A stretch of 40,000 bases of DNA from Cognatilysobacter lacus (GTDB lineage Bacteria > Pseudomonadota > Gammaproteobacteria > Xanthomonadales > Xanthomonadaceae): positions 1 to 40,000 of the forward strand of contig NZ_VTRV01000004.1 of the NCBI RefSeq assembly GCF_008274655.1. The letters are read 5' to 3'. Below, one piece after another: positions 27,367 through 39,152 of the stretch (the stretch's first letter is position 1; each line of letters starts with the position of its first letter). A program made the translations under genes and the position numbers. The notes under the pieces are model-generated. The model worked only from the letters and a program-made list of their open reading frames with translations. It had not been told where the DNA came from and did no database searches.

Positions 27367-28938
27367 TTGCTTCGCAGCCTGCTTGCCGCCGCCATCGTGA
27401 TCGCCGTCGCCGCCCCGCTCGCCTGCGCCCAGGAGACGCGGCTGCCCGATATTGGCTCGTCTGCCGGCGAGCTGATCACGCCGGCACAGGAAGACGCCTA
27501 TGGCGCGATGACGCTGGCGCAGCTGCGCCACTTCGACTACGTCCTCGAAGACCCGTTGATCGACAGCTGGCTGGACACGCTCGGCCATCGACTGGCCGGC
27601 GCTAGCGACGACACCAAGCGCCACTACACCTTCTTCATGCTGCGCGACCGCCAGATCAACGCGTTCGCAACGCTCGGCGGCTACGTGGCGATGAACTCGG
27701 GCCTCGTGCTTGCCGCCGACCGCGAGGACGAAGTGGCCGGCGTGCTGGCCCACGAGATCTCGCACATCACGCAGCAACACGTTCTGCGCAGCGTGGAACG
27801 GCAGAAGCAGGACCAGATCCCCACGCTGCTCGCGCTGCTCGGCGCGATCGTCGTGGCGCAGCAGGCGCACGGCAATACGGGGGCCGACGCGGCGTCCGCC
27901 GCCATGTCGGCGGCAATGGGCCTGGCCGCACAGCGACAGATCAACTTCACCCGCGCCAACGAAACCGAGGCCGATCGCGTCGGCATGCAACTGCTCGCGC
28001 GCAGCCATTTCGACCCGCGCGCGATGGCCGATTTCTTCGCGAAGCTGCAGTCGCGCATGCGCACCAACGAGGCGAGCGCGTTCGGCGACGAGGAGCCCGA
28101 CTACCTGCGCAGCCATCCGATGACGCTCGCACGCATCACCGAGGCCCGCGATCGCGCCGAGCGGCTGCGCACGCAACCCAATTACAGCGGGACGTTCGCG
28201 ACCGACAACCCGATGCTGCCGGCCGGCCTGCGCCTTGAAGCCGGTACCGGAGCCGGCCCGACCGGCCTGTTCGACTACGCCCGCGAGCGCCTGCGCGTCA
28301 TGAGCGCACTCACGCCGGCCGCCGCGATCCAGGAATACACGGCGATCAAGAGCTCGCGCGCGCTGACCGACGCCGAACAGTACGGGCTCGCCGTGGCCTT
28401 CACGCTTGCGGGGCAGCCGAAATCCGCGCTGCCGCTGCTGACCGCCGTGGTTGCGCGCAAGCCGGCCGACGTCTGGCCTCAGTTGGCCCTTGGCGAGGTC
28501 GAGGCCGCGAGCGGCAATGGCGCCGCCGCAGACGCCCGCTTCGAAGCCCTGCTGCGGAAGACCCCGGCGAGTCGCGCGGTGGTGCTCACGTACGCCAAGG
28601 TGCTCGGCGAGCGCAGCAGCCCGGCCGCCGGCAAGCGCGCGCAAGCGATCCTGCGGCCGCTGATGTCCAGCCTCTCGGAGGACCCCGTTTTCCAGCGCAC
28701 GTTCGCGCGTGCCAGCGAAATCGCCGACGACCCGGTGCGGGCGGGCGAGGCCCACGCCGAAGCCGCTTACCTCAGCGGGCGCCCCGAACTGGCGCTCGTG
28801 CAGCTCAATACGCTCAAGAAACGTCCCGACCTCGACTACTACTCGCGCACCCGCATCGAGTCCCGGATCGCCGCGATCACCCCGACGGTCCTCGAGCTGC
28901 ACCGCCAGGGCATCCACGACGAGGACCTGAAGCGCTGA
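27367..28938 (+). CDS. BepA-like M48 family metalloprotease with TPR domain
   Basis: A 523-residue periplasmic protease/chaperone. In E. coli, BepA helps assemble the LPS transporter LptD and degrades stalled forms. The N-terminal signal peptide (MLRSLLAAAIVIAVAAPLACA) is followed by the M48 domain with the zinc motif LAHEISH (His129, Glu130, His133) and the third ligand Glu201 (NETEADRVG). The C-terminal half (about 300-500) is helical with TPR-like repeats (AIQEYTAIKSSRALTDAEQYGLA onward). The start is a TTG at 27367 with a modest GGGGA ribosome site; upstream in-frame codons encode implausible Arg/Pro-rich sequence. It lies just upstream of the Pho box, in the same direction as phoB. Confidence 0.9.
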   Translation: MLRSLLAAAIVIAVAAPLACAQETRLPDIGSSAGELITPAQEDAYGAMTLAQLRHFDYVLEDPLIDSWLDTLGHRLAGASDDTKRHYTFFMLRDRQINAFATLGGYVAMNSGLVLAADREDEVAGVLAHEISHITQQHVLRSVERQKQDQIPTLLALLGAIVVAQQAHGNTGADAASAAMSAAMGLAAQRQINFTRANETEADRVGMQLLARSHFDPRAMADFFAKLQSRMRTNEASAFGDEEPDYLRSHPMTLARITEARDRAERLRTQPNYSGTFATDNPMLPAGLRLEAGTGAGPTGLFDYARERLRVMSALTPAAAIQEYTAIKSSRALTDAEQYGLAVAFTLAGQPKSALPLLTAVVARKPADVWPQLALGEVEAASGNGAAADARFEALLRKTPASRAVVLTYAKVLGERSSPAAGKRAQAILRPLMSSLSEDPVFQRTFARASEIADDPVRAGEAHAEAAYLSGRPELALVQLNTLKKRPDLDYYSRTRIESRIAAITPTVLELHRQGIHDEDLKR

Positions 28939-28942
28939 GCGG

Positions 28943-28976
28943 TTGTCACTGTGCTGTAACCGGACGGTAGTGTAGT
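28943..28976 (+). promoter_or_regulatory. Pho box and promoter of the phoB operon
   Basis: TTGTCAC (28943-28949) and CTGTAAC (28954-28960) are 7-base direct repeats 11 bases apart, matching the PhoB half-site (CTGTCAT) spacing. A -10-like TGTAGT follows at 28971-28976, 10 bases after the second repeat, the distance seen in E. coli Pho promoters. Confidence 0.75.
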
Positions 28977-29005
28977 GACCGCATCCGAACTTGGCCGGTA
29001 GCCGC

Positions 29006-29713
29006 GTGCACAAGCGCATCCTCATCGTCGAAGACGAGCCCGCGATCCGCGACATGGTCGCCTTCGCCCTGAAAAAGGGGGAGTTCGATCCCGTCCACGC
29101 GGGCGACGCGCGCCAGGCCCAGGAAGCGATCGCCGACCGCGTGCCCGACCTCATCCTGCTGGACTGGATGTTGCCCGGCACCAGCGGCCTCGAGCTGGCC
29201 CGTCGCTGGCGCCGCGAGCCGCTGACGCGCGAGGTGCCGATCATCATGCTCACCGCTCGAGGCGAGGAAAACGACCGCGTGAGCGGGCTCGAAGCCGGCG
29301 TCGACGACTACGTGGTGAAGCCTTTTTCCGCGCGCGAACTGCTGGCGCGCATCCGCGCCGTGCTGCGGCGCAGCCGCGAGGACGACGAGGACGGCTCGGT
29401 CGTGGTCGGCGCGATGCGGATCGACGGCGCGGCGCATCGCGTGGTCGCGCGCACCGCGTCGGGCGAACAGCCTGTGCAGATCGGTCCCACCGAGTACCGT
29501 CTGCTGCACTTCTTCATGACCCATCCCGACCGCGTCTACTCGCGCTCGCAGCTGCTCGACCATGTCTGGGGCGGCAGCGTGTATGTCGAGGAACGCACGA
29601 TCGACGTGCACATCCGCCGCCTTCGCAAGACGCTCGAGCCGACCGGACAGGACGGCATGGTGCAGACCGTGCGTGGCGCCGGCTACCGGTTCTCCGCATC
29701 GCCCGAGTCGTGA
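29006..29713 (+). CDS. phoB: Phosphate regulon response regulator PhoB
   Basis: A 235-residue OmpR/PhoB-type regulator. The receiver domain has acidic residues Glu9-Asp10, phospho-acceptor Asp53 (LLDWMLPG), Thr83 and Lys105 (VVKPFS). The C-terminal winged helix ends with VQTVRGAGYRFS and carries PTEYRLLHFFMTHPDRVYSR, typical of PhoB. Phosphorylated PhoB binds Pho boxes and activates phosphate-acquisition genes. The start is taken as GTG at 29006 (VHKRILIVEDE); a TTG 15 bases upstream is possible. It is followed 46 bases later by phoR. A Pho box lies about 45 bases before the start, implying autoregulation. Confidence 0.95.
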   Translation: MHKRILIVEDEPAIRDMVAFALKKGEFDPVHAGDARQAQEAIADRVPDLILLDWMLPGTSGLELARRWRREPLTREVPIIMLTARGEENDRVSGLEAGVDDYVVKPFSARELLARIRAVLRRSREDDEDGSVVVGAMRIDGAAHRVVARTASGEQPVQIGPTEYRLLHFFMTHPDRVYSRSQLLDHVWGGSVYVEERTIDVHIRRLRKTLEPTGQDGMVQTVRGAGYRFSASPES

Positions 29714-29759
29714 GGCCACGGCCGGCCGGCTCCGGCGCGCGGCCGTTTAGACTGTGCGG

Positions 29760-31094
29760 ATGACGTCCAGCGCCCGCTCCGCCTGGTTGCGAACGCTCGG
29801 CCTGGTCGCAGCGCCGATCGGCATCGCGCTCGTGCTCGGAGCGCTTGTCGGCCAGCCGGCGCCGGGAATCGCGATCGGCGCGCTGGTCGCGCTCGCATGG
29901 CAGACCTGGCGCACGCAATCGTTGGTGCTTCGACTGACGTCCGGGCGTCGCGCGCAACCGGATGCCCCGGCGGACATCCAGGGTGAAATCGAGCGTCTGC
30001 TGTATCGGCGCCAGACCAGCATGCGACTGCGCAAGCGCCGGCTGGTGGCCATGCTGCGCGCCTATCGCGCCGCCGCCACCGTGCTGCCGGACGCGGTGGT
30101 CGTCGTCGAGCGCGAGACCCAACGCATCGTGTGGTTCAACGAGGCCGGCACCACGCTACTGGGCCTGCGTTATCCGAACGACCTGCAGGCGTCGATCGTC
30201 GAGTGCCTGCGCGGGCTTCCGCTGGCTTCGTGGCTGGCGCGCGGCCGCAACGCCGGGCCGCTGGAAGCCGGTTCTCCGCTCGATGCGACGACCACGCTGA
30301 GCCTTCGCCTGCTGCCCTATTCCGACGATCTCTGGCTGCTGGTGGCGCGCGATGTCAGCCGCCTGCTTCAGCTGGAGCAGATGCGTCGCGATTTCGTCGC
30401 CAACGTCTCGCACGAACTGCGCACCCCTCTCACCGTCCTGCACGGCTACCTCGACATGCTCGACCCGTCCGAACAGCCGGAATGGGCGCCGATGCTGGAG
30501 GAAATGCAGCGGCAGTCCACGCGCATGACGCAACTGGTCGAAGATCTGCTCACGCTGTCGCGCCTGGAGTCACGCGCCGACCTGCCGGCGGAGGAAACTG
30601 TCCCGATGTCGGGCATGCTCGCGGCGCTCCGTCGCGAGGCGCTCGCGCTGGGCCAGGGCCGCCACACGGTGGACGTCGAGGACCGCGCGGGCGTCGACCT
30701 GCACGGTTCGCCGCGCGAGTTACACAGCGCGTTCTCGAACCTGGTCGCCAACGCCGTGCGCTACACGCCGGAAGGCGGGCGCGTGCTCATCGTCTTCGAT
30801 CATGAATCCGACGGCGAGGCGGGCGATGGCGTATCACTGTCGGTAACGGACACCGGCCCCGGCATACCCGCCGTTCACCTGCCGCGCCTGACCGAGCGCT
30901 TCTACCGCGTATCGAACAGCCGCTCGCGCGAAACCGGCGGCACGGGCCTCGGCCTGTCGATCGTCAAGCATGTGCTCGCGCTGCACCAGGCGCGTCTCGA
31001 CATCCGAAGCGAAGTCGGGGTCGGCAGCACGTTTTCCTGTCACTTCGGCGCTGCGCGCGTGCGCGACCGCCTGCCCCTGGAGCAGTCCGCATGA
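29760..31094 (+). CDS. phoR: Phosphate regulon sensor histidine kinase PhoR
   Basis: A 444-residue inner-membrane sensor kinase. Two membrane helices (about 12-31 and 36-50) have almost no periplasmic loop between them, as in PhoR, which senses phosphate through the Pst/PhoU system rather than directly. A charged linker and PAS domain follow (about 100-200). The phospho-acceptor is His218 in NVSHELRTPL; the ATPase domain has the N box NLVANAVRYTPEGG, DTGPGIP and GGTGLGLSIVKHV. The ATG at 29760 is preferred over GTG at 29754. Its stop overlaps the ppk1 start (ATGA). Confidence 0.95.
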   Translation: MTSSARSAWLRTLGLVAAPIGIALVLGALVGQPAPGIAIGALVALAWQTWRTQSLVLRLTSGRRAQPDAPADIQGEIERLLYRRQTSMRLRKRRLVAMLRAYRAAATVLPDAVVVVERETQRIVWFNEAGTTLLGLRYPNDLQASIVECLRGLPLASWLARGRNAGPLEAGSPLDATTTLSLRLLPYSDDLWLLVARDVSRLLQLEQMRRDFVANVSHELRTPLTVLHGYLDMLDPSEQPEWAPMLEEMQRQSTRMTQLVEDLLTLSRLESRADLPAEETVPMSGMLAALRREALALGQGRHTVDVEDRAGVDLHGSPRELHSAFSNLVANAVRYTPEGGRVLIVFDHESDGEAGDGVSLSVTDTGPGIPAVHLPRLTERFYRVSNSRSRETGGTGLGLSIVKHVLALHQARLDIRSEVGVGSTFSCHFGAARVRDRLPLEQSA

Positions 31095-33166
31095 GCGATC
31101 ACGACAGCAGCGACGACCTGCTGCGCGACCCATCGCTGTACTTCAACCGCGAGCTCTCCCAACTCGACTTCAACTTCCGCGTGCTCGCGCAGGCGCAGGA
31201 CGGCTCCGTGCCGTTGCTCGAGCGGTTGCGCTACCTGTGCATCAGCTGCACGAACCTCGACGAGTTCTTCGAGATCCGCGCGGGCACGCTGCAGCACGCA
31301 CAGGAACTCGGCCTCGCCGCGGGCCCCGATGGCCTGGTTCCGTCCGCCACGCTTGCGCGCATCCACGAGCGCGCCGCCGAGCTGGTCGCCGCACAGTACG
31401 ACTGCTGGAACACGGTGCTGCGTCCGGCGCTCGGCGACGTCGGCGTGCGCGTGTTGCACCGCGACGCGTGGAGCGACGCGCAGACCGACTGGCTGCGCAA
31501 GCATTTCCTCGACGACATCCTGCCGGTGCTTTCGCCGCTGGGGCTCGATCCGGCGCATCCGTTCCCGAAGATCCTCAACAAGTCCCTGAACATCGTGGTG
31601 GTGCTGGAAGGGCGCGACGCGTTCGGCCGCGCCGGGCACCTCGCCATCGTGCGTGCGCCGCGCTCCTTGCCGCGCATCATCCAGCTGCCGGAAGCCGTTT
31701 CGGGCGGCCCCAGTGATTTCGTCTTCCTCTCCTCTGTGCTGTCGGCGTTCGTCGACGAACTGTTCCCCGGCATGCTGGTCAAGGGCGCGTACCAGTTCCG
31801 CGTGACGCGCAATTCGGAGTTGCTCGTCGACGAGGAGGAGGTGGAGAACCTCGCCCTCGCGCTGAAGGACGAGCTTCTCGGACGCGGCTACATGCGCGCG
31901 GTACGCCTCGAGATCGCCGAGCAGTGCCCGCCCGACATCGTGCAGTTGCTGCTCGCCAACTTCGAGCTCGACGACAGCGCCGTGTACCGCATCAACGGCC
32001 CGGTGAACCTCAATCGCGCGATCCAGGTGTATGACCTGGTGAAGCGGCCCGACCTGAAGTTTCCGCCGTTCACTCCGCGGATCCTCCCAGGCGTCGAATC
32101 GATGTTCGAAACGATCGCCTCGCACGACGTGGTCCTGCACCATCCGTTCGACTCGTTCACGCCGGTGCTGGAACTGCTGCGGCAGGCGTCCGAGGATCCG
32201 AACGTGCTGGCGATCAAGCAGACGCTGTACCGCGCCGGCAAGGATTCGCAGATCGTCGAGCACCTCATCCAGGCCGCGCGAAACGGCAAGGACGTGACCG
32301 TCGTCGTCGAGCTGCGCGCGCGTTTCGACGAAGAGGCGAACCTCGGCCTGGCGGATCGGCTGCAGGCGGCCGGCGTGCAGGTGGTATACGGGGTCGTCGG
32401 CTACAAGACGCACGCGAAGATGCTGTTGATCGTGCGGCGCGAGGGCAAGGGCCTGTGCCGCTACGTGCACCTCGGCACCGGTAACTATCACTCCGGCACG
32501 GCGCGCACCTACACCGACATCGGGCTGCTCACCGCCGACGCCGACATCGGGCACGACGTACACCTGATCTTCCAGCAGATATCCGGGTTGTCGCCGTCGC
32601 TGGAGCTGAGGCGGATGCTGCAATCGCCATTCACGCTGCACAGCGGGATGCTGATGCGCATCGACCGCGAAGCGCGCAATGCGCAGGCCGGCCTTCCCGC
32701 GCGGATCATCGCGAAGATGAACGCGCTCAACGAGCCGCAGGTGATCCGCGCGCTCTATCGCGCCTCGCAGGCCGGCGTGCGCATCGACCTGATCGTGCGC
32801 GGCGCGTGCTCGCTGCGCCCGGGCGTTCCAGGCGTATCCGACAACATCCACGTGCGTTCGGTCGTGGGCCGGTTCCTCGAGCATTCGCGCGTCTACTGGT
32901 TCCAGAACGGCGGCGACCCGGAACTGCTGTGCGGCAGCGCGGACTGGCTCGAACGCAACCTGCTGCGCCGCGTGGAGACAGGGTTCGTGATCGTCGATCC
33001 GCGGGTGGCGCGGCGCATCTATTCCGAGGTGCTGGAGAACTATCTCGAGGACACCTGCAACGCGTGGGAGCTGGCCCCGGACGGCCACTACGCCCGCGTG
33101 CAGCCGGCTGATGGCGCAGCGCCGTACTCGGCGCAGCTCAAACTCCTGTCGAAGCTCTGCGGATGA
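31091..33166 (+). CDS. ppk1: Polyphosphate kinase 1
   Basis: A 691-residue enzyme that makes long-chain polyphosphate from ATP. The N-terminal FNRELSQLDFNFRVL and SCTNLDEFFEIRAG are family signatures. Catalytic histidines are His441 (YKTHAKM), the phospho-acceptor, and His598 (LEHSRVYWF); the 157-residue spacing equals that of His435 and His592 in E. coli. LGTGNYHSGTARTYTDIGL lies between them. ATGA overlaps join it to phoR upstream and ppx downstream, so polyphosphate synthesis is tied to the Pho regulon here. Confidence 0.97.
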   Translation: MSDHDSSDDLLRDPSLYFNRELSQLDFNFRVLAQAQDGSVPLLERLRYLCISCTNLDEFFEIRAGTLQHAQELGLAAGPDGLVPSATLARIHERAAELVAAQYDCWNTVLRPALGDVGVRVLHRDAWSDAQTDWLRKHFLDDILPVLSPLGLDPAHPFPKILNKSLNIVVVLEGRDAFGRAGHLAIVRAPRSLPRIIQLPEAVSGGPSDFVFLSSVLSAFVDELFPGMLVKGAYQFRVTRNSELLVDEEEVENLALALKDELLGRGYMRAVRLEIAEQCPPDIVQLLLANFELDDSAVYRINGPVNLNRAIQVYDLVKRPDLKFPPFTPRILPGVESMFETIASHDVVLHHPFDSFTPVLELLRQASEDPNVLAIKQTLYRAGKDSQIVEHLIQAARNGKDVTVVVELRARFDEEANLGLADRLQAAGVQVVYGVVGYKTHAKMLLIVRREGKGLCRYVHLGTGNYHSGTARTYTDIGLLTADADIGHDVHLIFQQISGLSPSLELRRMLQSPFTLHSGMLMRIDREARNAQAGLPARIIAKMNALNEPQVIRALYRASQAGVRIDLIVRGACSLRPGVPGVSDNIHVRSVVGRFLEHSRVYWFQNGGDPELLCGSADWLERNLLRRVETGFVIVDPRVARRIYSEVLENYLEDTCNAWELAPDGHYARVQPADGAAPYSAQLKLLSKLCG

Positions 33167-34689
33167 ACGGGCTCCTGCACAGCGCGAGGCTTCCGCTCAA
33201 GGATGGCGACCAGCTCGCCGCCGTCGACCTCGGCTCCAACAGTTTCCACATGGTGGTGGCCAGCTATGTGCTCGGCCAGTTGCGCATCGTCGACCGCATC
33301 AAGGAAACGGTGCGGCTCGCGGAAGGGCTGGAGAAAGGCGCGCTGACCCCGCCCGCGCGCGAGCGTGCGCTGGAATGCCTGGAGCGCTTCGGGCAGAGGC
33401 TTCGCGATATTCCACCGCAGCACATTCGCGCGATCGCCACGAATACGGTCCGCCGCCTCGCGACGCCCCAGGCCTTCCTCGGCCCGGCCGAAAGCGCGCT
33501 CGCGCATCCGATCGAGGTGGTCTCCGGCCGCGAGGAAGCGCGACTGATCTACCTCGGCGTCGCGCACGAGCAGCCGCCCAAGGCCGGCCATCTGCGGCTC
33601 GTCATCGATATCGGCGGCGGCTCGACCGAATTCATCATCGGCAGCGGCTTCGAAGCGATCGAGCGCGAGAGCGTGCAGGTGGGCGCCATCGCCACCACGC
33701 GACGCTTCTTCGCTGACGGGAAGCTTTCGCGCAAGCAATGGAAGAGCGGCGTGGCGGCGGTGAGCGCCGAGCTGCAGCAGTTCGCGGGCACCTACCGTTC
33801 GCTGGGCTGGGACGAGGCCCTCGGTTCGTCGGGAACGGCGCGCGCGATCGGCGAGATGTGCGCGGCCATGAAGTTGACGAAAGGCGCGATCACCGCCGAG
33901 GCGCTACCAAAGGTGCGCGACCGGCTGCTCGAGTTCGAGCGGATCGACGCGATCGCGTTGCCCGGCCTTTCGGAGGATCGGCAGTCGATCATCGCTGGCG
34001 GGCTGCTGGTGATGGAAGCCGCGTTCGATGCGCTCGGCCTGCAGCGGCTGGCCGTCAGCAAGGCCGCGATGCGCGAGGGCATCCTGTACGACATGCTCGG
34101 ACGCGGCGGCCTGGATGATCCGCGCGAGGCATCGGTGCTCGCGCTGACCGAGCGCTACGGCATCGATCGCGCGCAGGCGCAACGTGTCGAGCAGACGGCG
34201 CTGCGGTTGTTCGACCAGGTGGCGGTCGAAGGCGCGCTCGACGGCGACGATCGCCTGATGCTCGCCCGCGCCGCGCGCCTGCACGAGCTCGGCCTCACGA
34301 TCGCGCACAGCAAGTACCACCTGCACGGCGCCTATATCGTCGAGAACTCCGACATCGCCGGTTTCTCGCAGCAACAGCAGCAGTTCCTGGCCGCGCTGAT
34401 CCGCACGCACCGGCGCCGCGCGCGCAAGACGGACTTCGACGCCCTGCCCGATCGGCTGCTCGCCGCCGCGCGGCATATCGCAGCGCTGCTGCGCGTGGCG
34501 GTCGTTCTGCATCGCGGGCACGACGGGGAACCGATCCCGCAGTTGTCGGCGCGCATGCAGGGCGAGCGGCTGACCGTTTCGCTCGACTCGCGATGGCTCG
34601 AACGCCGCCCTCTATTGAAAGCGGACCTGCGCACCGAACAGGGGTATTTCGAAGGCCTCGACATGGAGCTGGTGGTGGAGACGACGTAA
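33163..34689 (+). CDS. ppx: Exopolyphosphatase (Ppx/GppA family)
   Basis: A 508-residue enzyme that removes terminal phosphate from polyphosphate. The N-terminal ASKHA-fold domains show AAVDLGSNSFHMVVA (phosphate loop 1), SGREEARLIYLG, and VIDIGGGSTEFIIG (phosphate loop 2). The C-terminal half is the helical HD-like domain (LARAARLHELGLTIAHSKYHLHGAYIV). The length is close to E. coli PPX (about 510). GppA-type pppGpp phosphatase activity is possible in the family, but location directly after ppk1 favours exopolyphosphatase. It ends 21 bases from the stop codon of the converging creD. Confidence 0.95.
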   Translation: MNGLLHSARLPLKDGDQLAAVDLGSNSFHMVVASYVLGQLRIVDRIKETVRLAEGLEKGALTPPARERALECLERFGQRLRDIPPQHIRAIATNTVRRLATPQAFLGPAESALAHPIEVVSGREEARLIYLGVAHEQPPKAGHLRLVIDIGGGSTEFIIGSGFEAIERESVQVGAIATTRRFFADGKLSRKQWKSGVAAVSAELQQFAGTYRSLGWDEALGSSGTARAIGEMCAAMKLTKGAITAEALPKVRDRLLEFERIDAIALPGLSEDRQSIIAGGLLVMEAAFDALGLQRLAVSKAAMREGILYDMLGRGGLDDPREASVLALTERYGIDRAQAQRVEQTALRLFDQVAVEGALDGDDRLMLARAARLHELGLTIAHSKYHLHGAYIVENSDIAGFSQQQQQFLAALIRTHRRRARKTDFDALPDRLLAAARHIAALLRVAVVLHRGHDGEPIPQLSARMQGERLTVSLDSRWLERRPLLKADLRTEQGYFEGLDMELVVETT

Positions 34690-34710
34690 CGGCTGAAAAG
34701 GCGCCGCGGC

Positions 34711-36066
34711 TCATTCCCGCGTGCCCGGCGTTGCCGGCGCGCCGAGCCGGTACCAGTCGACGCGTCGGGTCACGGTCATGATGCCGGCGAGGATCGCGAA
34801 CAGCAGGCCCGCGCCGAGCACCAGCGCGTTGTCTTCCGATATCAGCAGGCCGTACAGCGCGCCATACAGCAGCGCCAGCATCGCCGCGAATGCACCGCCT
34901 CGCGCAGCGCTTCGAAGTACCGCGCTCAGGTAGAAGCCGATCAGGCCGATGCAGGCCCCGCTCGCGACGACGTAAGCCACGCCGAAGTCGACGTGCTCGC
35001 CCAGGCTCACCAGCAGCAGGAAGAAGATCACCAGCGCGAGGCCTACAAGCCCGTATTGGATCGGGTGGATCGGCAGCTGCCTGACGAGCTCGAACATGAA
35101 CAGGCCGACGAACGTCAGCACCACGAACAGCACGCCGTACTTCGTCGCGCGGTCGGCCTGCGTGTAGGCGTCGACCGGTTCGGCCAGCACCACCCCGAGC
35201 ACGTCGATGCCGCCCGTCGCGTTGCCCGTGTCCGTCCCCGCGAAGGGCAAGGCGACCGCACCGCCAAGGAACTGGCGCTGCGCATCGGTCGCCACCGACG
35301 CCACCTGCCACTGCGCCCGGAAACCGCCGTCGGTGATCCGGCTCCGCCACGGCGACAGGCCCTGGAAGCTGGGATGCGGCCAACTCGACACGAGGTCGAT
35401 GCGGTTCCGCTTTGCGATCGGAACGATTCCCAGCGACTCGGCACCGGCCAGCTGCATGTCCAGTCGCGTCGCAAGAGCGAGATGGGCGCCCGGCGCGAGT
35501 GCGGCGAGGCGCGCGTGCAGCCCACTGCCCGCGCGGATTCCCGAGCCTTCGTGCAACTCCATCTCGACGCCGTCCACGCGCAGGCGCGGCGCGCCGTGCA
35601 GGCCGCGCACGTCGGTGATGGCATAGCTCAGCACGGGCACGCCGATGACGCGTTCCGCGCCGGGCGCGGCATCGTCCGGAATGGTCGCGTCGAACTCGGC
35701 CGCCAAGGTCGCCGTCCACTCGTAGACGGGCACCGCGTAGATACCGCGCTTGCGCGTCGCCGGAACGAGCGGCCCGCCGGCTGCCAGGCGCGTCGGAAAG
35801 AATGTCCACTGCGACCAGCGACGCTTGCGCACCGTGTGCGCCACGCCGTCGCCACCGGGCTCGTCGAACTCCGCGATCTCCGAATACGGCACCGTGAGCA
35901 CGGGGCCGGTCACCGCCTGCGGCCCGGCATAGGAACGCATCACGTCGGCAACGGCCTGCCGGCGATACGACTGTCGTTCCGCGGTTACCCCGTGCACCAA
36001 CGCCAGCGGGATCAGGATGGCGAGCGTCATCGCCGCCACTAGCACCATCTTGAACCACATGCGCAT
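34711..36066 (-). CDS. creD: Inner-membrane protein CreD
   Basis: A 451-residue inner-membrane protein of the CreD (Cet) family, whose expression is activated by CreBC and which affects envelope integrity and colicin or beta-lactam responses in other bacteria; its biochemical role is unknown. One N-terminal helix (about 8-25) is followed by a large periplasmic domain (about 30-300: PGPVLTVPY-like PVLTVPYSEI, FPTRLAAGG, GFRAQWQV), then five or so helices in the C-terminal 150 residues (KYGVLFVVLTFVGLFMFEL onward). The ATG at 36066 follows AAGGA at good spacing; a second ATG two codons later is possible. A cre-tag-like repeat lies 68 bases upstream. Confidence 0.93.
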   Translation of the reverse strand: MRMWFKMVLVAAMTLAILIPLALVHGVTAERQSYRRQAVADVMRSYAGPQAVTGPVLTVPYSEIAEFDEPGGDGVAHTVRKRRWSQWTFFPTRLAAGGPLVPATRKRGIYAVPVYEWTATLAAEFDATIPDDAAPGAERVIGVPVLSYAITDVRGLHGAPRLRVDGVEMELHEGSGIRAGSGLHARLAALAPGAHLALATRLDMQLAGAESLGIVPIAKRNRIDLVSSWPHPSFQGLSPWRSRITDGGFRAQWQVASVATDAQRQFLGGAVALPFAGTDTGNATGGIDVLGVVLAEPVDAYTQADRATKYGVLFVVLTFVGLFMFELVRQLPIHPIQYGLVGLALVIFFLLLVSLGEHVDFGVAYVVASGACIGLIGFYLSAVLRSAARGGAFAAMLALLYGALYGLLISEDNALVLGAGLLFAILAGIMTVTRRVDWYRLGAPATPGTRE

Positions 36067-38243: not shown

Positions 38244-38294
38244 CCGCGCCCCCTCGATGACAGCCGGCAGTGTGCCACCGCGTAGGCTATGCGC

Positions 38295-39152
38295 ATGAAC
38301 TACCGCCACGCCTTCCATGCCGGCAACCACGCCGACGTGCTCAAGCACACCGTCCTGCTGATGCTCTGCGAGGTGCTGGCCGACAAGCCGGCCCCGCTGT
38401 TCGCACTCGACACGCACGCCGGCCGCGGCATCTATCGCCTCGACGACGCCAAGGCCCAGCGCACCGGGGAGGCCACCGGAGGCGTCGGTCGCGTGCCCGA
38501 CAGCGACGTGCCGATTCCGCTGCGCCCTTACGCGGCGGCAGTCGCCGCCTGTCGCGCCGCACACGGCCCGAGCGCGTATCCCGGTTCGCCCTGGTTGCTG
38601 GCGCACGCGCTGCGGGCGCAGGACCGCATCGCATGCTGCGAGCTGCAACATGACGAAGCCGACGCACTGCGGGCGAATTTCGCCGGCGATCCGCGCGTCG
38701 CGGCCCACGCGCGAGATGGCTACACGGCGATGCATGCGCTGTTGCCGCCCCGGATCGGCACCGAGCGCTTCGGTCGCGGCCTGGTGCTGATCGACCCGCC
38801 TTTCGAATCGCAGATGGAGGAATTCGACGTCGCGATCACCGCGCTGCGCGATGCCTTGCAGCGCTTTCCGCAGGCCACCTACGCGCTCTGGTATCCGATC
38901 AAGCTGCGGCGCACCCTGCACCCGGTTTTCCGCCGCCTGGCCGCGCTGCCCGCCAAATCCGTGCTGGTTGCCGAAGTCCTGGTGCGCCCCGACGACTCGC
39001 CGCTGCGCATGAATGGCAGTGGCCTGGTGCTGTTCAACGCGCCGTGGAAATTCGACGCGCGGCTGCGCACGCTCTTGCCGGCGCTGGCGCGGGTGCTCGG
39101 CGACGAGGGGCGGGGCACGTGGCGGGTCGACTGGCTCAAGGCGCCGGAATAG
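38295..39152 (+). CDS. rlmJ: 23S rRNA (adenine-2030-N6)-methyltransferase RlmJ
   Basis: A 285-residue SAM-dependent methyltransferase that modifies A2030 of 23S rRNA. The N-terminus MNYRHAFHAGNHADVLKH is diagnostic of the family (formerly YhiR). The SAM site is LFALDTHAGRGIY (about 35-47), and the catalytic DPPF is at 167-170, corresponding to the DPPY-type motif of N6-adenine methyltransferases. The ATG at 38295 matches the family start; an in-frame ATG two codons earlier is less likely. Confidence 0.95.
   Translation: MNYRHAFHAGNHADVLKHTVLLMLCEVLADKPAPLFALDTHAGRGIYRLDDAKAQRTGEATGGVGRVPDSDVPIPLRPYAAAVAACRAAHGPSAYPGSPWLLAHALRAQDRIACCELQHDEADALRANFAGDPRVAAHARDGYTAMHALLPPRIGTERFGRGLVLIDPPFESQMEEFDVAITALRDALQRFPQATYALWYPIKLRRTLHPVFRRLAALPAKSVLVAEVLVRPDDSPLRMNGSGLVLFNAPWKFDARLRTLLPALARVLGDEGRGTWRVDWLKAPE

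Follow-up and report, generated by a model that had tools for sequence, protein, structure and literature searches.

In Escherichia coli, the phoBR operon has a Pho box and a PhoB-activated, self-amplifying promoter before phoB, which is followed by phoR. The E. coli ppk-ppx genes, which Akiyama in 1993 reportedly described as a polyphosphate operon, are located away from phoBR. Here we describe a locus of Cognatilysobacter lacus in which phoB, phoR, ppk1, and ppx stand in that order on one strand. It occupies positions 28,943 to 34,689 of the 40,000-nucleotide (nt) stretch of DNA that we analyzed, referred to below as the window. Like E. coli phoBR, the locus has phoB, then phoR, and a predicted PhoB-activated, self-amplifying promoter; unlike it, ppk-ppx is joined 3′ of phoR, and phoR has a candidate promoter of the leaderless type. 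As in the E. coli ppk-ppx operon, the maker and the breaker of polyphosphate share one operon, but here that operon is attached to phoR.

A similar gene order is known from Burkholderia sacchari. An excerpt of the report on that species (PMC6960187) describes phoB-phoR-ppk1-ppx with pst and phoU in front, a similar cluster in four relatives, and separate predicted promoters for phoR, ppk, and ppx. Both clusters have phoB and phoR and then ppk1 and ppx. In the account given in that excerpt, however, pst and phoU are attached, whereas here they are not attached to the row, and the two pstS-like genes that we found sit on another contig (C294; the window is C236). In the same account, ppk1 and ppx are adjacent but run in opposite directions, as in P. 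aeruginosa, whereas here phoR, ppk1, and ppx share a direction and overlap. We regard the arrangement itself as ordinary and conserved, its order being already published for Burkholderia, and the two-promoter view set out below as a useful refinement.

The initial annotation of this DNA, made from the letters alone, had read the four genes as one unit driven from a Pho box, a reading that we find only partly supported. We propose, with a probability of about 0.6, that the phoBR-ppk1-ppx cluster of Lysobacteraceae instead has two promoters, P1 upstream of phoB and P2 immediately before phoR. At P1, the Pho box would stand in for a −35 element, and phosphorylated PhoB on the tandem half-sites would recruit sigma-70 polymerase to the −10 at 28971; P1 would drive phoB and, by read-through, the remaining genes. 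P2 would be a leaderless promoter with a −10 only, its transcript starting at or near the phoR ATG, and would give a PhoB-independent basal supply of PhoR, PPK1, and PPX, which the ATGA stop-start overlaps would probably cause to be translated in a coupled way. Amplification from P1 during phosphate starvation would be greatest for PhoB, smaller for PhoR, and smallest for the polyphosphate enzymes, while P2 would sustain the sensor and polyphosphate turnover when phosphate is plentiful. The four genes need not, then, rise and fall together, probably owing to a second promoter within the row. The features concerned, all on the plus strand, are as follows.

28943..28960, plus strand: predicted Pho box, half-sites TTGTCAC (28943-28949) and CTGTAAC (28954-28960), 11-nt period
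28965..28971, plus strand: third, weaker half-site CGGTAGT (CKGTMGT in relatives, from column counts of the 36-nt model)
28971..28976, plus strand: putative −10 hexamer of P1, TGTAGT, 4/6 to TATAAT (TSTAMT in relatives, from column counts of the 36-nt model)
29006..29713, plus strand: phoB, response regulator; GTG start; TIGR02154 at 363 bits against a cutoff of 296.2; Response_reg and Trans_reg_C
29748..29753, plus strand: TAGACT, −10 of the candidate promoter P2, leaderless type; begins 12 nt and ends 6 nt before the phoR ATG at 29760
29760..31094, plus strand: phoR, phosphate sensor histidine kinase; ATG start; TIGR02966 at 398.4 bits against a cutoff of 334.2; PF11808, HisKA, and HATPase_c
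31091..31094, plus strand: ATGA overlap of the phoR stop and ppk1 start, exact; NTGA-type overlap in 59/80 rows
31091..33166, plus strand: ppk1, polyphosphate kinase 1; TIGR03705 at 909.2 bits against a cutoff of 465.85; four PP_kinase Pfam domains
33163..33166, plus strand: ATGA overlap of the ppk1 stop and ppx start, exact; NTGA-type overlap in 26/78 rows
33163..34689, plus strand: ppx, Ppx/GppA-family exopolyphosphatase; TIGR03706 at 313.6 bits against a cutoff of 307; PF02541 and PF21447

The site upstream of phoB has the layout of a PhoB-dependent promoter, with two direct 7-nt units 11 nt apart and, after a 10-nt spacer, the putative −10 TGTAGT, and this layout is kept in relatives. It matches the Pho-box consensus, CTGTCAYNNNNCTGTCAY, at 12 of 14 positions and is the sole match in the window with only two mismatches. 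The consensus by itself is at the level of chance in this GC-rich genome. At up to three mismatches, we found 4 matches in the window against 7.36 expected from shuffles, and genome-wide a slightly looser pattern gave 39 matches at up to two mismatches, the same number as its reversed form (39). We therefore did not take the genome-wide consensus scan as evidence.

A model of 36 nt covering both the box and the −10 was built from related species, with the window left out. The relatives came from 80 phoR loci, the best 80 of 580 matches to the PhoR of the window. From 79 loci, 67 sites entered the model at first; three of these sites, shifted in register (L074, L082, and L084), were removed, near-duplicates were thinned to 33, and removal of one false site left 32, including the sites of the two nearest relatives. 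In the window, P1 scored 29.9 bits and the other 79,929 positions at most 4.4. Over 751,565 bases (about 1.5 million positions), drawn from the window, from the nearest relative (G026; 400 kb), and from a further 312 kb or so of this genome, P1 scored 29.7 bits; the next sites lay before the second pstS gene (14.0) and the first (5.3), and all others scored at most 5.2. The stretches of this genome were chosen partly for consensus matches, which biases the ranking towards such matches, while the 400 kb of G026 were not so chosen. Box and −10 learned together from relatives thus pick out phoB and the pst genes. With the two nearest relatives removed from the model, P1 still scored 22.2 bits. 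All 79 relatives with phoB had a best upstream site of at least 28.1 bits (median, 48.5; 32 of these sites built the model), and the maximum in 395 coding windows was 2.3.

With the 79 loci and the window taken as 80 rows, 68 matched at 11 or more of the 14 fixed positions within 150 nt before phoB (the match in L083 being false), compared with 0.06% of ppk coding windows and 1.5% of mononucleotide shuffles; in the loci that failed, the site was weaker in form or farther upstream. Conservation in the 36-nt model falls on the three half-sites, on a linker rich in A, and on TSTAMT, which we read as a −10. We rejected a 22-nt model of the box as a specific detector: it gave P1 a score of 11.2, under its lowest member (12.1), and ten other scanned sites scored higher, at least two of which lie inside long frames (L121 and C258:843). 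P1 stands out because box and −10 are scored together, the −10 part carrying much of the signal. The half-site pair with 11-base periodicity and spaced −10 that the initial annotation had placed before phoB is therefore present and is well above chance as a motif (29.7 bits against 14.0 for the next best). From this we infer PhoB binding, and autoregulation of phoB by PhoB is strongly supported by the conservation of the site.

The second promoter candidate belongs to a described class. A survey of 953 bacterial genomes, in the excerpt considered here (PMC3160421), found TANNNT about 12 bp upstream of start codons, read it as a mark of leaderless genes, and named Xanthomonadales as one of the two gammaproteobacterial groups holding most of them. 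The TAGACT before phoR resembles the boxes of these genes in sequence and in its distance from the start codon; it differs in standing within a gene row, between regulator and sensor. Among relatives, TAGACT or a similar TANNNT recurs 6 to 7 nt before the phoR ATG in gaps that otherwise differ in both length and sequence. Of the 64 rows, the window among them, whose gap is 20 nt or longer, 35 had a TANNNT ending 5 to 8 nt before the phoR start; mononucleotide shuffles averaged 1.0 and never exceeded 4. The same box was found at 0 of 78 phoB starts, 1 of 26 ppk starts, and 16 of 40 ppx starts. When short gaps and weaker boxes were counted, 44 of 80 rows had a strong phoR box and 10 a weak one. 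It was also kept in six relatives with 603 to 670 nt between phoB and phoR. From its frequency against shuffles and its agreement with the published layout, we think it probable that phoR-ppk1-ppx is also served by its own basal promoter.

The same spacing recurs genome-wide. G026 (400 kb) and this genome (352 kb) each had 15 TANNNT sites at 6 nt; in both, 6 nt was the top of spacings 0 to 30, with 0 to 3 sites at each of 0 to 5 nt and at most 8 (G026) or 9 (this genome) at other spacings. Spacing counts across the 80 loci were not used, these loci being homologous to each other. Two further such boxes were seen in the window, a TAGGCT on the plus strand, exactly 6 nt before the ATG of MNYRHAFHAG at 38295 (the longest frame begins at 38289), and a TAGACT on the minus strand, exactly 6 nt before the ATG of a 245-codon frame (8117). 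Some Pseudoxanthomonas and Luteimonas loci have a lone CTGTCAY half-site some 11 nt upstream of the phoR −10, with scores up to 15.2. A role for these is possible, but the window lacks one (score, −6.7), and they were left out of the proposal.

We then considered whether transcription from P1 could continue into phoR. A scan of 28000 to 36000 revealed no terminator-like site on the plus strand and one on the minus strand, and the hairpin in the phoB-phoR gap of the window was not significant (z = −1.07), so a terminator or attenuator hairpin at this place was rejected. These results lead us to expect read-through from the phoB promoter. In the 40 loci with a gap of 40 to 130 nt, the median z against mononucleotide shuffles was −1.02, and a few were strong, to −8.15. 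In the window, the 300 nt preceding each of phoR, ppk1, and ppx held no Pho-box-like site. Over all rows, the 300 nt before ppk scored at best 9.9 and those before ppx at best 5.5, compared with a median of 27.9 for members, and a Pho box there was likewise rejected.

Expression data come from a relative. In Xanthomonas oryzae exposed to rice leaf extract, according to part of the published account (PMC4862043), phoB rose 17-fold and phoR 12-fold at 5 min, and ppk, the next gene, rose 2-fold within 30 min. That phoR followed phoB and ppk followed only weakly favors, as far as the data in that part go, read-through to phoR in X. oryzae and a less tight link with ppk, and it suggests looser coupling to ppk. 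In listings of open-licence papers, we found no further study of transcripts or start sites of this cluster in Lysobacter or Xanthomonas.

These observations bear on the idea of a single transcript running from the Pho box to ppx, with all four genes rising together in starvation and TAGACT being a chance occurrence or a weak relic. The lack of a plus-strand terminator-like site in the scan and of a significant phoB-phoR hairpin, the shortness of the 46-nt gap, the ATGA overlaps downstream, and the nearly equal rises of phoR and phoB in X. oryzae are all consistent with it. We nevertheless consider it unlikely, given the precisely spaced, conserved −10 at phoR with its genome-wide class and the merely 2-fold response of ppk in X. 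oryzae. The claim of a single Pho-driven unit is weakened because of this leaderless-type −10, the absence of a Pho-box-like site before phoR, ppk1, or ppx, and the small ppk response; what stands of it is the overlapping phoR-ppk1-ppx block, P1, and the expected read-through. The annotation had also asked whether a terminator or promoter splits phoR from ppk1. We found none there, and the promoter candidate lies instead between phoB and phoR.

The weak ppk response could also be accounted for by an additional ppk1 promoter within the end of the phoR coding sequence, an idea in keeping with a ppk response far below that of phoR in X. oryzae and with the ppk and ppx promoters predicted for B. 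sacchari in the excerpt of PMC6960187. It seems quite improbable to us, since TANNNT occurred at ppk in only 1 of the 26 rows where the called phoR-ppk gap was 20 nt or more (ppk starts being rough) and the scan found no sigma-70-like site in 28000 to 36000. The two-promoter proposal places the second start at phoR.

Six Luteimonas-type loci differ between phoB and phoR, where they carry a palindromic, AT-richer repeat of about 430 nt (L063, 5329-5979; L072, 5386-6000; L081; L084; L086; and L098). The copy in L072 folds at −254.5 kcal/mol, with a z of −16.73 against shuffles, and because it folds far better than its shuffles, read-through from phoB to phoR may be poor in these six relatives. 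Parts of the repeat occur in either orientation, with more matches near 13 kb in L072, L081, and L084. Of 60 family genomes, 11 had matches, with a maximum of 18 in a single genome; a palindromic copy can be counted twice, and scoring was limited to 11 candidates per genome. No Rfam match to the repeat was found for L063, L072, or L098, the copies searched. The repeat and the presence of P2 in the 46-nt gap would suit two practically separate units, with phoB transcribed from P1 alone, phoR-ppk1-ppx from P2 only, and little read-through. We think this very unlikely for C. lacus: the repeat was not matched in the genome of the window, the gap in the window has no significant hairpin, and phoR tracks phoB closely in X. 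oryzae.

Several observations weigh against the two-promoter reading. No strong or weak box was present at phoR in 26 of the 80 rows, so P2 is not essential to the layout. Nine of the strong boxes, with gaps of at most 20 nt, borrow the TAG or TAA of the phoB stop codon, and neither these nor the 10 weak boxes had a shuffle control. The control motif TNNNAT was also most frequent at 6 nt in G026 (21 sites; next, 19), although it had no 6-nt peak in this genome (8 sites). TAGACT lacks a −35, and no −35 enrichment was found for its class of sites. The 80 loci, being the best of the 580 PhoR matches, sample near relatives. Finally, the X. oryzae series, in the part of the report cited, concerns rice leaf extract, not phosphate limitation, and a species other than that of the window.

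All four genes were found in the same order on one strand in 77 of the 80 loci, and the other three run off their contigs (L062 without phoB, L099 without ppk, and L107 without ppx). Start codons in these loci were called by script, and those of ppk are approximate: some loci first scored with a gap overlap by NTGA. Both the phoR/ppk and the ppk/ppx overlaps were present in 18 rows, including the window. On a PPK tree made with FastTree, presence of the phoR box changed at least 13 times (79 rows), the phoR/ppk overlap 11 times (80 rows), and the ppk/ppx overlap 16 times when scored more loosely (32 of 78); these counts do not separate gain from loss and had no shuffled-label comparison. We tentatively suggest, at somewhat less than even odds, that across Lysobacteraceae a leaderless promoter uncouples regulator and sensor. 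PhoB alone would be self-amplified, and PhoR and the polyphosphate enzymes would be basal and boosted only by read-through. The layout of P2 and overlaps would have switched repeatedly, tuning the ratios of sensor to regulator and of making to breaking, while gene order stayed fixed.

In a wider sample of the class, with about one genome per family, phoR and ppk matches were found in 50 of 104 genomes, and they were neighbors (one strand, less than 1 kb) in 2 of the 50, both Lysobacteraceae. The genomes were drafts with broken contigs and adjacency was judged by eye from coordinates, and Burkholderia-type clusters were not recovered. Three distant genomes of this sample (G120, G126, and G143) have ppx, not ppk, 0.2 to 0.7 kb downstream of phoR on the same strand. 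One Lysobacter-like phoR locus (L065) is filed under the cyanobacterium Tolypothrix campylonemoides, probably through contamination of that assembly.

The row links phosphate sensing and polyphosphate storage in one conserved arrangement, and the two-promoter view offers a testable explanation for a possibly weaker response of the storage enzymes than of the regulator. According to part of one report (PMC13250506), Caulobacter requires ppk1 to recover from phosphate starvation, but no longer does so once pstS or phoB is deleted. A ppk1 with both basal expression and a PhoB-dependent boost would suit such a safety role.

The four products were assigned by profile searches. PhoB, PhoR, and PPK1 passed curated cutoffs, and the PhoR N-terminal domain PF11808 was present (41.5 against 27.1). 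The ppx product passed TIGR03706 but was below the cutoffs of the longer equivalogs (Ppx NF008108, 394.7 against 864; GppA NF008260, 386.2 against 624). The ppk1 product is 90% identical to a polyphosphate kinase (L038) of Lysobacter xinjiangensis, the nearest named relative. The source assembly is a draft of 2.86 Mb in 301 contigs, 91.87% complete, and a search of it found no second copy of ppk or ppx, ppk1 and ppx each being the single match. Both ATGA joins claimed by the initial annotation are exact in sequence, and phoR-ppk1-ppx is a single overlapping block in C. lacus; phoB and phoR do not overlap and are separated by the 46-nt gap. The 5′ neighbor of phoB is an M48 protease gene ending at 28938, and the 3′ neighbor of ppx is a convergent creD.

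The two pstS-like genes lie in tandem at C294:2646 and C294:3810 (L149 and L182). Finally, a close Pho-box match, CCGTCATAATCCTGTCAT, lies at C257:5801-5818 (L120 and L184), 42 nt start-to-start before a 210-codon frame. This match is absent from the top 36-nt-model sites listed, and the frame had no NCBIfam match; by eye we take it to resemble a DUF47/PhoU-like protein.

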